This document shows positions 11,398 through 27,210 of a stretch of 64,000 nt of DNA, piece by piece (position 1 is the first letter of the stretch; every line of letters starts with the position of its first letter). The translations under genes were made by a program, and so were the position numbers. Source of the stretch: Gemmatimonas sp. (GTDB lineage: Bacteria; Gemmatimonadota; Gemmatimonadetes; Gemmatimonadales; Gemmatimonadaceae). The DNA lies in the NCBI GenBank assembly GCA_011390885.1, contig JAABRO010000033.1:79389-143388 (forward strand), given 5' to 3'. The notes below the pieces were generated by a model. That model did no database searches. It was not told the DNA's origin and was given only the letters and a program-made list of their open reading frames with translations.

Positions 11398-12594
11398 TCA
11401 CACGCCCAGCAACTCGAGCGTCGCCGCCGTGAGATACCGCAACCCGATGCCGAGCGATGCCTCGTCGATGTCGAAGCGCGGATGATGGTGCGCGTAGGTG
11501 ATGCCGCGCTCCGCGTTGCCCGCGCCCACGAAGGCGAACACGCCGGGTGCGCGCTGCTGGTAGGCGCTGAAGTCCTCGCCGCCCATCACGGGGCGGAGCG
11601 GTTCGAGCACCTCCGCGCCGAAGGTGCGTGACACCACCCCCGCGAGGCGCTCGGTGAGCGCGGCATCGTTCACCACCGGACGGTAGCCGAGCTCGTAGGT
11701 GAAGTCGTACGTCGCGCCGAAGCCTTCGGTGATGCCCCGGATGAGGCGCTCCATGCGCTCGGGCATGAGGCGGCGCAGCGCCGGGTCGAAGGTGCGCACC
11801 GTGCCCGACAGGTAGGCGCTGTTGGGAATCACGTTGAACGCGGTGCCGGCAATGAACTGCGTGACCGAGAGCACGGCCGGCTCGAGCGGGTCCACCTGAC
11901 GCGCCACGATCTGCTGCAGCGCCGTGACCACCTGCGCGCCGATGGCGATGGGGTCGACCGTGTCGTGCGGCAGTGCGGCGTGCCCGCCCTTGCCGGTGAT
12001 GGTGCACTGGAAGGTGTCGGGGGCGGCCATGGCGGGGCCGGTCACGAGCCCGATCTTCCCCACGGGCATGGACGACCAGAGGTGCAGCCCGATGACCTCG
12101 TGCACGCCGTCCATCACCCCCGCCTGCACGAGCTCCTCCGCGCCGCCCGGCGAGAGCTCCTCGGCGTGCTGGAAGATGAAGCGCACCTCGCCCGCGAGCT
12201 GGTCGCGTGCGCCGGCGAGCAGCGTGGCGAGGCCGAGCACGATGGACGTGTGCCCGTCGTGTCCGCAGGCGTGCATGGCGCCGCGCACGGTGCTGCGGTA
12301 CGGCACGTCGTTCTCTTCGTCGATCGGGAGCGCGTCGATGTCGGCACGCACGGCGATGGTGCGCCCGGGCGATGCGCCACGCAGCTGCGCGACCACGCTC
12401 GTGGTGGTGGGACGGGAGACCTCGAGCCCCTCGATGGCCACGAGCACGTCATGGATGAACTGCGCCGTGCCGTGCTCCTGGAAGGAGATCTCGGGGTTCC
12501 GGTGCAGGTGGCGGCGCCAGGCGATGACCTGCTCGGCGAGGGCGTCGGTGCGCGCGACGAGGTCGGCGACGGAGGGGGCGACTGGGGCGGACAT
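11398..12594 (-). CDS. M20-family amidohydrolase / aminoacylase (hippurate hydrolase type)
   Basis: 398 residues, cytosolic. The dinuclear metal site is visible: HLHRNPEISFQE near residue 30, RADIDALPI, MHACGHDGH with the first metal ligands, QHAEE with the bridging Glu pair, and HHPRFDIDE near the C-terminus. The central lid domain (KGGHAALPH) is present. Family members remove acyl groups from amino acids or cut small peptides. The start at MSAPVAPSV precedes the conserved first helix. Nothing downstream is obviously coupled. Confidence 0.9.
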   Translation of the reverse strand: MSAPVAPSVADLVARTDALAEQVIAWRRHLHRNPEISFQEHGTAQFIHDVLVAIEGLEVSRPTTTSVVAQLRGASPGRTIAVRADIDALPIDEENDVPYRSTVRGAMHACGHDGHTSIVLGLATLLAGARDQLAGEVRFIFQHAEELSPGGAEELVQAGVMDGVHEVIGLHLWSSMPVGKIGLVTGPAMAAPDTFQCTITGKGGHAALPHDTVDPIAIGAQVVTALQQIVARQVDPLEPAVLSVTQFIAGTAFNVIPNSAYLSGTVRTFDPALRRLMPERMERLIRGITEGFGATYDFTYELGYRPVVNDAALTERLAGVVSRTFGAEVLEPLRPVMGGEDFSAYQQRAPGVFAFVGAGNAERGITYAHHHPRFDIDEASLGIGLRYLTAATLELLGV

Positions 12595-22213: not shown

Positions 22214-22521
22214 GCCGATAAGAACCCGGCCGCGGGTGGTTTGGTCACGAAGGGCCGACGGCGCATCGGCACGGTGGGTGGACGGAAACGATGGAAGCCC
22301 TGAAGATCGGTGTCAGCGTCGGCGGCACCAACTCCTCGTGTCCTGGACACGGCGGCAGCGTGCACGGCTCTCCGGCGGCAAGCTACGCCTCCTTGGTGTC
22401 GGCTTGCCAGCCGAGGCGCATGCTGGCTCTCACGGCGTCGGGAGTCGATGGGTTGACAGCGGGGTTAATTGATACTGAGTTCGCGAAACCGTTCATCAGT
22501 CTCCATCTTCCCCATCCGGCC
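22214..22521. other. 308-base divergent intergenic region upstream of the zinc-type operon
   Basis: No gene is seen here. The right half holds TTGACA at 22453-22458, an unusually AT-rich tract (GGTTAATTGATACTGAG, about 22463-22479) and the 8-base palindrome TTCGCGAA at 22480-22487, all 35-70 bases before the ATG at 22522. This is the likely promoter and operator area of the operon. I could not fit a clean -10 at 17 bases, nor a recognised Zur box. Confidence 0.4.
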
Positions 22522-23802
22522 ATGTCAACGAATCCAACGCCGAGCCGCCTCGCCATCCTCCTGCTCGCCGCCGGCACTCTCGCCGCCTGCTCCGACGACA
22601 ACGGGACCACCCCACTCGGGTCCAACCCGTCGACTTCCGTGACGGCGGCGCAAGTCCAGCGCCTGCTGGTCGCCGACACCGCGCCCCGTGCGCGCCTCCT
22701 CGCCGTCCACAACGATTCGACAGTCGCCAGTTACACGCTGGCCGCGCCTGGCTCGTACGTCTACTCCACGGCCTCCGGGCGGTTCGCCGCGATCCAGCAG
22801 CGTACGGCCGATCGCGTGAACTTCTACGATGCCGGCGTCTGGGTGGACGGCGCGACTGGCCATCGTCGCGCCCCGATGCCGCTGGCCTTCCAACTCACCG
22901 ACGGCCTTCCGACGCATGCGACCGTGACTGGGTCGTGGATCTCCATCTTCATGGACGGCAACGGACGCGCCGTGTGGATGAACGAGGCCGACTTCGTTGC
23001 GGGTGCGCCTCGCGTGGCGTTCGAAGTGCAAACCGGCGGGCCGCACCACAGCGGCTCGAGCACGATCGTGATCAACGGTACGCCGTACTTCGTGCTCGCT
23101 CCGCGCAATCCCGCGGGTGGCCTGCCAACGGCGGTCGAGGTGCGCAACCAGGCCGGCCAGGTCGTGGCGAGCGTACCGAACTGCCCGTCGATGCACGGCA
23201 ACGCCGCCATTCTCAACGGCGCCGCGTTTGGCTGCAGCGATGGCCTCGTGATCGTGCGCCAGGGCGTATCCGGGGTGACCGCGACCAAGGTGACGACGAC
23301 CGGCGACATGGCCGGTCTCGGCCTGCGCAATGCGTGGGCGGCAAAGAGCGGCACCGGGCTCATTCTCGGGCAGTTCGCTGCCCTGCCCGGTCAGCCGACG
23401 CGCCGGGTGCTCGCGCTCATCGATCCGGTGAGTGGCACGGTCAATCCGCTGCCGGCGCTGCCGTCTGGCGTGGTCGACCACTGGCGTGTGATCGAGCCGG
23501 TGAAGGGACAGGTCGTGGTCTTCGCCAACAATGGTTCGCTGTACGTCTACAGACTGTCCACGCGGCAGCTGGTGCAGACGGTGGCCAACGTGACGCCGGC
23601 GCTACCGACGTCGGGGGCGCTCACACACCAGGTGGACGCGGTGGAGGATCTCGCGGCGGTCGCGAGCCCGACCACGGGTGAAGTCGTGTACGTGAACCTC
23701 GCAACCGGCTCGATCGCCCGTCGGGTGAACCTCGGTGGTGCGCCGTCGCGGCTCACCTTCACCGGCGCCAAGCAGAGCGGGACCTTTACCCTCGCCCAGT
23801 AA
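22522..23802 (+). CDS. AztD-like beta-propeller lipoprotein (putative zinc chaperone)
   Basis: 426 residues. Lipobox LAAC (Cys23). The mature protein is a seven-bladed-type propeller with repeated strand pairs (VADTAPRARLLAVHNDSTVA, VVVFANNGSLYVYRL, GEVVYVNLATGSIARRV). The segment C221-PSMHG with Cys238 (AFGCSDGLVIV) matches the C-HG-GC pattern I know from the periplasmic zinc metallochaperone AztD. Other histidines (H132, H175-H176, H320) lie at blade edges. It stands first in a four-gene operon, three bases before a ZnuD-like receptor. The zinc role is inference from motif and context. Confidence 0.65.
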   Translation: MSTNPTPSRLAILLLAAGTLAACSDDNGTTPLGSNPSTSVTAAQVQRLLVADTAPRARLLAVHNDSTVASYTLAAPGSYVYSTASGRFAAIQQRTADRVNFYDAGVWVDGATGHRRAPMPLAFQLTDGLPTHATVTGSWISIFMDGNGRAVWMNEADFVAGAPRVAFEVQTGGPHHSGSSTIVINGTPYFVLAPRNPAGGLPTAVEVRNQAGQVVASVPNCPSMHGNAAILNGAAFGCSDGLVIVRQGVSGVTATKVTTTGDMAGLGLRNAWAAKSGTGLILGQFAALPGQPTRRVLALIDPVSGTVNPLPALPSGVVDHWRVIEPVKGQVVVFANNGSLYVYRLSTRQLVQTVANVTPALPTSGALTHQVDAVEDLAAVASPTTGEVVYVNLATGSIARRVNLGGAPSRLTFTGAKQSGTFTLAQ

Positions 23803-23805
23803 GCC

Positions 23806-26115
23806 TTGCGACGCGTCGTCCTGCTCGTCGGTCTGTTGTTGTTGAGCCGGCCGCTGCCTGTCTCCGGACAGGACGCAGTCGGCACCGCGGTGCTCCTGGT
23901 GCGCGACGCGGACACGCAGGCGCCCGTGCGCGATGTTGTCGTGCGCGCAGGTGACCGTGTGCTCGCGCGCACGGATTCACTCGGTCGTGTGACGGTCCGC
24001 GTCGTCGGGGCGGGCACGGAAGTGACACTGCAGCGTCTCGGGTATGCGCCGTGGCGCGGACGGATAGTGCCAGCGCCGGCCTCTCGTGCCATCCGGCTCA
24101 CGCCGGTGCGTCTCGAGCTCGCTGCGGTCGAGGTTCGCAGTCGGGCCCTCGGCCGCGGCAGCGCGCTGCAAGCCACCTCGGTCGTGGGAGCCGAGCAGCT
24201 GGCCGAGCGGCTCGCGCCCAGCATCGCGGCTGCGCTGGTGGACGAGCCGGGCGTGAGCGCGCGCTCCAACGGCCCCATGGCGACGCAGCCGGTGATTCGT
24301 GGTCTGACGGGTGATCGGGTGCTCGTGCTCGAGGACGGCATGCGCACCGGCGACATCGCCACGACCGCGCCCGATCACGCCGTCACGATCGAACCTGCGA
24401 CGGCAGAGCGGATCGAGGTGATTCGCGGGCCGGGTGGCCTGCTGTACGGGTCGAACACGCTCGGTGGTGTCGTCAACGTGATTCGTGACGACATACCGCG
24501 CAGGCGACCCTCACAGACGTCGCTCGCGATGTCGACGTTTGGTGAGAGCGTGAACCGTGGCATCGGCGTGAGTGGACGCGCACGCGGCGCCATGGGCGCC
24601 TTGACGTGGGCGGTGGACGGCACCGGGCGGCAAGCTGGCGACACGCGCGGGCCGAACGCCGTCGCGCTGCCCTTCACCGATCTCGAAGGCATGGACGTGG
24701 GCGCGGGACTGAGCGTCGCCGGTTCGCGTGGACACGCCGGTGTGGCGGCGCGCGAGTATCGCAGCTACTACGGTGTGCCCAGTTCGTTCGGCGGCGTCAC
24801 CTTGCCCGGCGCACACGATGGCGGCGTGTACGTGGACGCGCGTCGCACACAGCTGCGGTGGGACGCCGAGTGGCGCACGGACGACGCGCGTATCGAAGCG
24901 ATCAGCGTGGGCGGCAATGCGGTGCGCTTCGAGCAATCGGAGTTCGAGCAGGGTGGCATCGTGGGGACGCGCTTCGGTCAACTCGCCGCCTCGGGCGAAG
25001 CCGTGATGCGCCTTCGCGCGGGGGAGCACCGCGGTGCGATCGGCAGCTTCGTGCAGTGGCGTGATCTGCGAGCAGAGGGATCGTTCACGGGCACGCGACC
25101 GGCGGTGCAGCGCACTCTTGCGCTGTTTGCCGTCGATGAATACACACGGGGATCACTTACGCTCCTGGCCGGTGCTCGCATCGATCGCAGTGAGACGCGA
25201 CCTCTCGACAGCACCGAGACGCTGCTGTTGCGCGACGTGCGTACGCGCGCGTTCACGGCGGTGACCGGCGCGTTCGGCGCGCGCGTGCAACTGCCGGCCG
25301 GCTTCGAGTTCACGACGCAGATTGCGCGCGCGTTCCGTCCGCCGAGTATCGAGGAGTTGTACAGCGCGGGGCCGCATCTGGCGAGTTACGCCTACGAGAT
25401 CGGTGATCCGTCGCTTGAGGCCGAACGTGGCACGGGCGTGGACGCACTGCTCAGCTGGCGCGGAGGACGTGGTCGCGCTGAGGTCTCGGCGTACGGCATG
25501 CGGGTTGACGACTACGTTGCGTTTGAACCGCAAGTCGATCCCGTCACCGGCGCGCCGATGCGTGATCCGCGCCTGCGTCGCTACGTGGTGTATCGTCCGC
25601 AGCAGGTGGATGCGCTGCTGTGGGGTGTGGAAGGCCGCGCGATGTTTGCACCCACGCCGCAGTGGACGTTCGATCTGTCGGGCGCGCTGCCACGCGGGGC
25701 GCAGCGCGGTGGCGCGACCTCGCAACCGCTGCCGGCGATGCCGGCGGCCACGTTGCGGCTCGATGTGCGGCACCAGCGCGGTCCGCTCACGCTTGGTGTC
25801 ATCGGTGATGGTCGATTCGCCCAGCGCCTTGTGCCGGACGCGCCCGTGCTCGACGGGCTTGCGTGCACCGTGCAGGTGGTCGATGGCGAAGCGCAGGGGT
25901 TGCCAGCGGAGTTCTGTGCCACGCCCGGTGCAATGCTCATGAACGCCCTGGTGGCGTGGCGACTGCCGGCGCGTGCAACACGCTGGCCGGCCACCCTCAC
26001 GCTGACCGTGGACAACCTGCTGGATGCCGAGTGGCGCGATCCGCTGTGGCGGGCGAAGCAGGTGGCGCCGCAACCGGGACGCAATGTGCGCCTTGTGGTG
26101 CAGGTGGAGCGATGA
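23806..26115 (+). CDS. TonB-dependent receptor, ZnuD-like
   Basis: 769 residues, TTG start three bases after the preceding stop. Signal peptide (VVLLVGLLLLSRPLPVSGQ), a carboxypeptidase-regulatory-like domain (about 25-100), then the plug. The plug reads ATQPVIRGLTGDRVLVLEDG, then APDHAVTIEPATAERIEVIRG and LLYGSNTLGGVVNVI. The DHAV segment and this plug style match ZnuD-type zinc and metal receptors. The barrel ends NLLDAEWRDPLW and PGRNVRLVVQVER. The receptor is flanked by the AztD-like lipoprotein and two His-containing lipoproteins. The stop overlaps the next ATG. Confidence 0.82.
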   Translation: MRRVVLLVGLLLLSRPLPVSGQDAVGTAVLLVRDADTQAPVRDVVVRAGDRVLARTDSLGRVTVRVVGAGTEVTLQRLGYAPWRGRIVPAPASRAIRLTPVRLELAAVEVRSRALGRGSALQATSVVGAEQLAERLAPSIAAALVDEPGVSARSNGPMATQPVIRGLTGDRVLVLEDGMRTGDIATTAPDHAVTIEPATAERIEVIRGPGGLLYGSNTLGGVVNVIRDDIPRRRPSQTSLAMSTFGESVNRGIGVSGRARGAMGALTWAVDGTGRQAGDTRGPNAVALPFTDLEGMDVGAGLSVAGSRGHAGVAAREYRSYYGVPSSFGGVTLPGAHDGGVYVDARRTQLRWDAEWRTDDARIEAISVGGNAVRFEQSEFEQGGIVGTRFGQLAASGEAVMRLRAGEHRGAIGSFVQWRDLRAEGSFTGTRPAVQRTLALFAVDEYTRGSLTLLAGARIDRSETRPLDSTETLLLRDVRTRAFTAVTGAFGARVQLPAGFEFTTQIARAFRPPSIEELYSAGPHLASYAYEIGDPSLEAERGTGVDALLSWRGGRGRAEVSAYGMRVDDYVAFEPQVDPVTGAPMRDPRLRRYVVYRPQQVDALLWGVEGRAMFAPTPQWTFDLSGALPRGAQRGGATSQPLPAMPAATLRLDVRHQRGPLTLGVIGDGRFAQRLVPDAPVLDGLACTVQVVDGEAQGLPAEFCATPGAMLMNALVAWRLPARATRWPATLTLTVDNLLDAEWRDPLWRAKQVAPQPGRNVRLVVQVER

Positions 26116-26552
26116 TGCGACGACTTCGTGCGATGGCCGTGTGCGTGCTGGTTGCGTGTGGGCTGACGGCGTGCGATCACCCGATCGGTATCGTGTCGGC
26201 GCACATCGAAGCGGCCGACCTGGTCGTGCGTGATTCGGCGGGCGTGGAGCTCACGCGTACGAGCTTCAATCGCCGCTGGATGGTGGACTCGCTCGTGCTG
26301 CGCGACGGCGCGTCGCTGCGTGTGACGATCACGCCGGTGGACTTTCGCGGGGCCGAGTTGGACGTGAGCGAGCGTCGGGACGTGTCGTACCGCCTCGATG
26401 CGGAGCGCGCCGAGCTCGTGCAGTGGGAGCCGCAGCGCGGCTTCGGGTGGTTGCATCCGTTCGGACGCGGGGAGACGCGCGTCCGCTTTCTCATCTGGCA
26501 CGGTGACCACGCGGACTTCGTCTCGCCGTGGTTGCGTGTCGTGATTCGCTAA
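26112..26552 (+). CDS. Small lipoprotein of the zinc-type locus
   Basis: 146 residues with lipobox LTAC (Cys21). Two His-containing sites are visible, DHPIG right after the lipid anchor and WHGDHADF near the C-terminus. The rest looks like an Ig-like beta-sandwich (VVRDSAGVELTRTSF, LVLRDGASLRVTITPVDF). The ATG overlaps the receptor stop (ATGATG), so it is translationally coupled. It may hold or pass metal at the outer membrane; no family recognised. Confidence 0.65.
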   Translation: MMRRLRAMAVCVLVACGLTACDHPIGIVSAHIEAADLVVRDSAGVELTRTSFNRRWMVDSLVLRDGASLRVTITPVDFRGAELDVSERRDVSYRLDAERAELVQWEPQRGFGWLHPFGRGETRVRFLIWHGDHADFVSPWLRVVIR

Positions 26553-26572
26553 GGTCTGGAGTGGAGGCGCTG

Positions 26573-27067
26573 ATGTTCACCTCGGTACGGCGTGTGATGC
26601 GACCCGTGGTCGCGATGCTGGCGATGGCCGTGATGGCGGCCTGCGGTGACAAGGAGGGCGTGACGGCGCCCGAAGTGGAGGGGCTCCGGATTCGCGAAGT
26701 GATTCTCGCGGCCGATGATGGCACGTTTGCCTTCTCGCACCGGGATCATTGGCACGGGGCGCCGGTGATGCGCGCCAACGGCACGCGTGGCCTCACGCTG
26801 CACTTCACCAGCACGCAGCTGGCGCCGGATGATCACGACGTGCCCCCGGTGGAGTCGTGGTTCACGTTGGCGACGGCGCCGAGTGACTACAACGTGCGCG
26901 TGGTGATCGAGGACACGACCGTGGCCCGATGGTCAGGCGACCGCGTGGGCGGCACGCTGCACGGTCTGCGTGATGGGGCCTCTCGCGTGTCGTTCGTGGT
27001 GCGACGCGGCTCGACGACGATTTACGAGGCGCCGCCGCTCAACTTCCGGGTGCAGCCGGCGCCGTGA
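26573..27067 (+). CDS. Small lipoprotein with HxxHxH histidine-triad motif
   Basis: 164 residues with lipobox MAAC (Cys24). Residues 56-61 read HRDHWH, exactly the HxxHxH pattern of zinc-binding streptococcal histidine-triad proteins, within FAFSHRDHWHGAPV; DDHD follows near residue 92. The remainder is beta-rich (TLHFTSTQL, ASRVSFVVRRG). Last gene of the four-gene operon, 20 bases after the previous stop, preceded by GGAGTGGAGG. Confidence 0.7.
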   Translation: MFTSVRRVMRPVVAMLAMAVMAACGDKEGVTAPEVEGLRIREVILAADDGTFAFSHRDHWHGAPVMRANGTRGLTLHFTSTQLAPDDHDVPPVESWFTLATAPSDYNVRVVIEDTTVARWSGDRVGGTLHGLRDGASRVSFVVRRGSTTIYEAPPLNFRVQPAP

Positions 27068-27079
27068 GTCGCCGACGTG

Positions 27080-27210
27080 CTTCGCGTCCTTCGCGCCCTT
27101 CGCGCCCCTCGCGTCCTGTGGTTCTCTTCGTGGGAGGTCCGATGCTCGGACGAGAGAACTGCAGGACGCGAGGACGCGAGGGGCGCGAAGGGCGCGAGGA
27201 AGAGCGCGAA
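27080..27210. repeat. Long palindrome, type A copy 1
   Basis: Arms 27091-27116 and 27172-27197 are perfect 26-base complements built of TCGCGCCCTTCGCGCC units, and the match continues imperfectly outside. A small inner hairpin GTCCGA/TCGGAC (27138-27143, 27147-27152) sits at the centre. GAACTGC flanks the right arm. It fills the gap between convergent genes and could terminate both. A closely related copy is at 59711-59860. Confidence 0.8.

Follow-up and report, generated by a model that had tools for sequence, protein, structure and literature searches.

A conserved four-gene operon of Gemmatimonadota encoding an AztD-like lipoprotein, a ZnuD-like receptor and two Ig-like lipoproteins as a candidate outer-membrane zinc system

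Introduction

Pairs formed by a TonB-dependent receptor and a lipoprotein are exemplified by TbpA/TbpB and SusC/SusD. For zinc, the beta-propeller AztD has been described in the literature as a chaperone that serves an ABC importer. The protein of Paracoccus denitrificans has one zinc site in its pore (site 1, His124/His167/His218), a second one formed by His99/His102/Asp104/His408 (site 2) and a disulfide between Cys214 and Cys231, and AztD of Gram-negative bacteria is periplasmic (PMC6689063). In published assays, zinc was transferred from AztD to the binding protein AztC from site 2 only. The main text of the paper on the AztD structure (PMC6689063) mentions neither "TonB" nor "outer membrane".

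Here we analyzed four genes carried by a 64,000-nucleotide stretch of Gemmatimonas sp. DNA (the window), which an earlier reading made from the letters alone (the sequence-only reading) had proposed to be a zinc-acquisition operon of the outer membrane.

Results

Layout and conservation of the operon

The sequence-only reading had described four co-directional genes with intergenic gaps of 3, -4 and 20 bases. We reproduced their coordinates (22522-27067, all on the + strand; Table 1) and found the same order, AztD-like gene, receptor, lipoprotein A, lipoprotein B, in a further seven genomes, which belong to two families of Gemmatimonadota (loci L057, L058, L060, L062, L063, L064, and L065), so that the neighborhood conservation across the phylum that it had left to be verified is indeed observed. 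With this order recurring in all seven, and with identities of 32-77% between gene 1 and its counterparts in these loci, the four-gene arrangement is beyond chance. The signal peptides of genes 1, 3, and 4 end in the lipoboxes LAAC, LTAC, and MAAC, respectively.

Table 1. Positions of the operon genes and of the predicted promoter elements in the window
Feature	Position	Strand	Remarks
-35-like element TTGACA	22453..22458	+	common to most aztD-like promoters; consensus match only
Probable Zur operator	22470..22491	.	overlapping 16-mers 22470-22485 and 22476-22491, partly degenerate
Gene 1, AztD-like beta-propeller lipoprotein	22522..23802	+	426 aa; matches AztD profile and AztD structures
Gene 2, ZnuD-like TonB-dependent receptor	23806..26115	+	TTG start, 769 aa; zinc ligands D190, H191, E379, H524
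Gene 3, lipoprotein A, Ig-like	26112..26552	+	146 aa; conserved C-[DE]-H-P, WHxxHxD
Gene 4, lipoprotein B, Ig-like, paralogue of A	26573..27067	+	164 aa; conserved SHxxHWHG, DH

Shorter versions of the locus were also recovered: L066 encodes the receptor with A and B and lacks the propeller, and L069-L074 and L076 encode a receptor with a single lipoprotein. AztD-like genes were found in 10 of the 249 sampled Gemmatimonadota genomes and co-occurred with orthologues of lipoproteins A and B (Fisher p 1e-12 over the 249 genomes, a statistic that ignores kinship). A contig scan with a single peptide pattern returned matches from Gemmatimonadota only and is uninformative on other phyla. The sigma-factor-like ORF located just upstream on the minus strand was present only here and in L087, and we did not retain it as part of the system. 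Directly 3' of the operon, the window contains a long G+C-rich inverted repeat (27085-27205), in which CGCGTCCTTCGCGCCCTTCGCGCCCCTCGCGTCCTG is paired with a near complement of itself; it may be a terminator or a mobile palindromic repeat.

The receptor resembles ZnuD

The receptor was assigned by comparison of ligands and by model scores. Its plug carries the segments VIRGLTGDRVL and APDHAV, in which a likeness to ZnuD-type zinc receptors had been seen beforehand, and this likeness held: the best PDB match was ZnuD (4rdr, E 1.2e-38), the zinc site was complete and no cobalamin or siderophore signature appeared. The ZnuD ligands D99, H100, E340, and H499 align, in that order, to the four residues listed in Table 1. 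Every related locus encodes a receptor with these ligands, even where the identity is only about 30% (one receptor is truncated and lacks the plug in this alignment), and they were absent from the two unrelated TonB-dependent receptors compared. By these ligands, a role of the receptor in zinc uptake is strongly implied. A cobalamin or siderophore receptor was ruled out by the ligand set together with the scores.

The family models were closer to each other. Gene 2 matched the NCBIfam ZnuD model with 143.5 bits (E 9.2e-42), below the curated cut-off of 950, and its top model was TIGR01785, the heme/hemoglobin receptor family (E 2.1e-44, 152 bits). As ZnuD also has its fold and the position of its pocket in common with heme receptors, one could suppose that gene 2 imports heme and that its neighbors are heme-related or incidental lipoproteins. 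We give this reading very little credence, because D190, H191, E379, and H524 fit the ZnuD zinc site, the nearest heme receptor in the PDB, PhuR, comes only after ZnuD (E 2.6e-13), ZnuD is the top model for the receptors of both relatives scanned (L066 and L076), and the partner of the receptor is AztD-like and has an operator in common with zinc genes (see below).

The propeller keeps the pore site of AztD and lacks the transfer site

Gene 1 had been likened to AztD for its propeller fold and a C-HG-GC segment, with the reservation that it encodes a lipoprotein. Both the lipobox and the segment are present, the latter as CPSMHG...GC (C221, H225, C238). The profile search with 22522-23802 gave a nearly full-length match to the NCBIfam AztD model (E 5.4e-22, 78 bits, below the curated NCBI cut-off of 400), and the best PDB matches were the AztD structures 6cmk and 6ck1. 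The resemblance extends to the site-1 ligands (H132, H176, H225) and to the Cys pair C221/C238, all invariant in 12 Gemmatimonadota relatives, and stops at site 2. The C-terminal His of this site was missing in 12/12 relatives and its HG[DE]H hairpin was gone in 11 of them, G093 alone retaining HGDHAH; ten AztDs from Pseudomonadota, Actinomycetota, Deinococcota, and Bacteroidota, whose C-terminus is complete and which served for comparison, all have both an HxxH hairpin and a His in or beside the terminal position. By its sequence, gene 1 is a true relative of AztD, yet not a full AztD, and the propeller likely binds zinc at its intact site 1.

Two AztD genes outside Gemmatimonadota departed from the usual pattern in other ways. 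A Neorhizobium AztD (L107, 4911-6137) retains site 2 and has another residue in place of the first site-1 His (RPVQA), which inverts what is seen in Gemmatimonadota. On a plasmid of Thalassospira marina (L108:4899-8382), a gene annotated as AztD adjoins an IucA/IucC siderophore-synthesis gene and not an ABC transporter.

The usual recipient of zinc was not detected

The cluster A-I binding protein of ZnuA/AztC type (PF01297) was not found in the genome, which is about 95% complete, and control genomes were positive; this incompleteness means that the missing ZnuA is not absolute. PF01297 was also not found in the seven other aztD-bearing Gemmatimonadaceae sampled, and it was present in G093 and G191, two aztD-bearing genomes of another family. 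The loss of site 2 thus appears to run with the loss of the recipient, a correlation that is suggestive only because few independent lineages are concerned and because 128/249 Gemmatimonadota genomes are without ZnuA anyway. A canonical Azt system was rejected here, as ZnuA was not found in the genome. An ABC system similar to znuGHI, present in 6 of the 11 genomes searched, was not found in this one either and was rejected as its inner-membrane route. Since neither system was found, the inner-membrane step is probably performed by a ZIP transporter.

Lipoproteins A and B belong to an unnamed family

The HxxHxH motif noted earlier in the last gene is present as HRDHWH. Genes 3 and 4 had been left unassigned to any family, and our searches agree: lipoproteins A and B and their wider relatives matched neither a Pfam or NCBIfam family at a meaningful score nor, by sequence, any solved structure. 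Their predicted structures are confident (mean pLDDT 90 for A and 85 for B) and correspond to Ig-like sandwiches, with structural matches to the generic Ig-like fold only. Profile comparison united A, B, and the single lipoprotein of the wider loci in one superfamily (probabilities 97-99%), most wider-group members exhibiting the motifs HLHG and MHG...HAD. A and B are, by these comparisons, paralogues of an unnamed Ig-like family. The wider-group profile recovered members, both window genes included, in 67/249 sampled Gemmatimonadota genomes, and our analysis defines in this way an unnamed zinc-linked lipoprotein superfamily; none of the wider relatives was found on a plasmid. Zinc binding by A and B is plausible, judging from their conserved His and Asp residues alone.

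A common palindrome precedes the operon and other zinc genes

A 16-bp palindrome, approximately TGAKAAC-NN-GTTMTCA, was common to the upstream regions, the sites of the relatives L057 and L087 aligning with the operator of the window. Because it had first been spotted by eye in a set that contained the ZIP promoter, the operator matrix was built solely from aztD-like promoters. A matrix trained without the window ranked 22476 first (12.3) and 22470 fourth (9.2) across the 64 kb; the top-ranked site, of moderate strength, lies 46 bases before gene 1. On 461 kb, the matrix of aztD-like promoters recovered 19 sites scoring ≥15, training sites included, against 1.2 expected in first-order random sequence. 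Several of these 19 that are not training sites precede zinc genes: the ZIP gene of this genome, the Fur-family gene found among the neighbors of L066, ZrgA/DUF3299, and receptors. The sole match to the consensus with <2 mismatches in this genome precedes the ZIP gene, the consensus having been written after that site was seen. In znuGHI-like ABC-2 operons, the ATPase gene was preceded by a site scoring 14-18.9 in 5/6 genomes, of which four were new to the analysis.

In L083:6136-8537 (G000:C11), the ZIP gene, preceded by the palindrome, is clustered with a gene for the zinc-free type B ribosomal protein L31 and a Fur-family gene, and this cluster is the probable core of the zinc regulon of this genome. 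The clustering supports the name Zur, and the palindrome is most likely, from its distribution, a Zur operator. The nearest models of the Fur-family protein near ZIP are PerR and not Zur, and Fur-family genes in this set score best with PerR models. Together with the fact that His/Asp/Glu ligand sets are not strictly metal-specific, this leaves a small chance that the operon imports another metal (Mn, Co, Ni, or Cu) under a PerR-like or Mur-like Fur-family regulator. We consider it improbable, given that the operator also occurs at the ZIP gene beside zinc-free L31 and at the ZrgA and znuGHI-like operons, which are linked to zinc in studied bacteria.

Other occurrences of the palindrome were recorded. 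In genome G202, a Peptidase_M19 (membrane dipeptidase) gene at L064:700 has a strong palindrome of the operator type just before it (L064:655-670, TGAGAACGCATTATCG, score 19.5), so that this peptidase may join the same regulon. In G093 (L058:8135-14909), an ABC-2 transporter set directly adjoins the four-gene operon, with a palindrome at 11823; it is divergent from a second TonB receptor and from an ORF that weakly matches ZIP.

Discussion

The sequences themselves show that the operon is conserved, which ligands are present, that site 2 is lost, that the palindrome is common to these genes, and that no ZnuA is detectable. Zinc uptake by the operon is well supported. The interpretation given by the sequence-only reading is upheld as well: an AztD profile match, a receptor with the ZnuD zinc site, and a conserved layout were all observed. 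The best explanation, which taken as a whole we hold to be quite probable, is that the operon is a zinc-starvation system serving the passage of zinc across the outer membrane. In times of zinc shortage, a Zur-type repressor of the Fur family would come off the palindrome ahead of 22522, allowing expression of the four genes. Zn2+ would then enter the D/H/E/H pocket of the ZnuD-like receptor and be carried across in a TonB-driven manner. Lipoproteins A and B and the propeller would be membrane-anchored zinc binders beside the receptor, gathering zinc for it or accepting zinc from it. The propeller retains the AztD pore site, its site for the hand-off to an ABC binding protein being gone, and entry of zinc into the cytoplasm would rely on a different system, most likely the ZIP transporter with the same operator. 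In this scheme we infer the metal, the identity of the regulator and the membrane side of each lipoprotein, as well as the hand-off of zinc between lipoproteins, receptor and propeller and its direction.

Since site 2 is lost and no such binding protein was found in the genome, the propeller probably partners the receptor and the lipoproteins. It could then be that an AztD-type propeller was relocated from an ABC pathway to the outer membrane, lipid-anchored, and became with two Ig-like zinc lipoproteins the delivery partner of a ZnuD-type receptor; we propose this more specific idea tentatively, its chances being somewhat short of even. Alternatively, the propeller and both lipoproteins could all lie on the periplasmic side and simply deliver zinc taken from the receptor to an importer of the inner membrane (ZIP), i.e., classical chaperoning without capture at the surface. 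AztD is periplasmic in Gram-negative bacteria (PMC6689063) and the ZIP gene has the same operator, but site 2, from which AztD is known to donate zinc, is lost, and the three are all lipoproteins whose genes accompany that of the receptor; we regard this alternative as having nearly an even chance.

If relocation did occur, the propeller, the lipoproteins, and the receptor would form a machine of receptor and lipoproteins whose cargo is a bare metal ion. Since the pore site persists here in the absence of both the transfer site and the recipient, the role of site 1, which is not clear for AztD, can be tested directly. The palindrome provides a candidate Zur operator for Gemmatimonadota, a phylum for which no zinc regulon is described in the literature that we searched. 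Our search of the open-access literature yielded neither the gene combination, nor the transfer-site loss, nor the lipoprotein family, and all the main parts except the lipoproteins have a known relative.

The propeller is homologous over nearly its full length to AztD of Paracoccus denitrificans and Citrobacter koseri (6CK1, 6CMK), with the same pore histidines and disulfide pair. Unlike AztD, it is a lipoprotein, it has lost both the hairpin and the C-terminal His of site 2, and its gene accompanies a TonB receptor gene and not aztABC, in a genome of about 95% completeness where a PF01297 search found no AztC/ZnuA. For the receptor, ZnuD of Neisseria (4RDR) is the nearest structural relative by sequence and has the same four high-affinity zinc ligands, although its His-rich loop-3 stretch falls inside an unaligned gap (alignment to 4rdr, first three genes) and gene 2, in contrast to it, has three lipoprotein partners within one operon.

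In the znuK/znuGHI regulon of Caulobacter (PMC4176598), a Zur-controlled TonB receptor is divergent from an ABC-2 transporter, a layout similar to that of L058, where the palindrome lies in between; neither an AztD-like propeller nor a lipoprotein pair is described there, and its Zur box is of the GTTAT...ATAAC type, unlike the palindrome found here. As for the PA4063-PA4066/ZrgA zinc systems (PMC8561739), a set of ZrgA, DUF3299, and an FtsX-type ABC permease was found, with COG0523, near the receptor-lipoprotein pair of L076 and not beside the window operon. Finally, TbpA/TbpB and SusC/SusD have, as here, a TonB receptor encoded with lipoproteins, but no family match of A and B to the partners in these pairs was found, and the likely cargo here is a bare metal ion.
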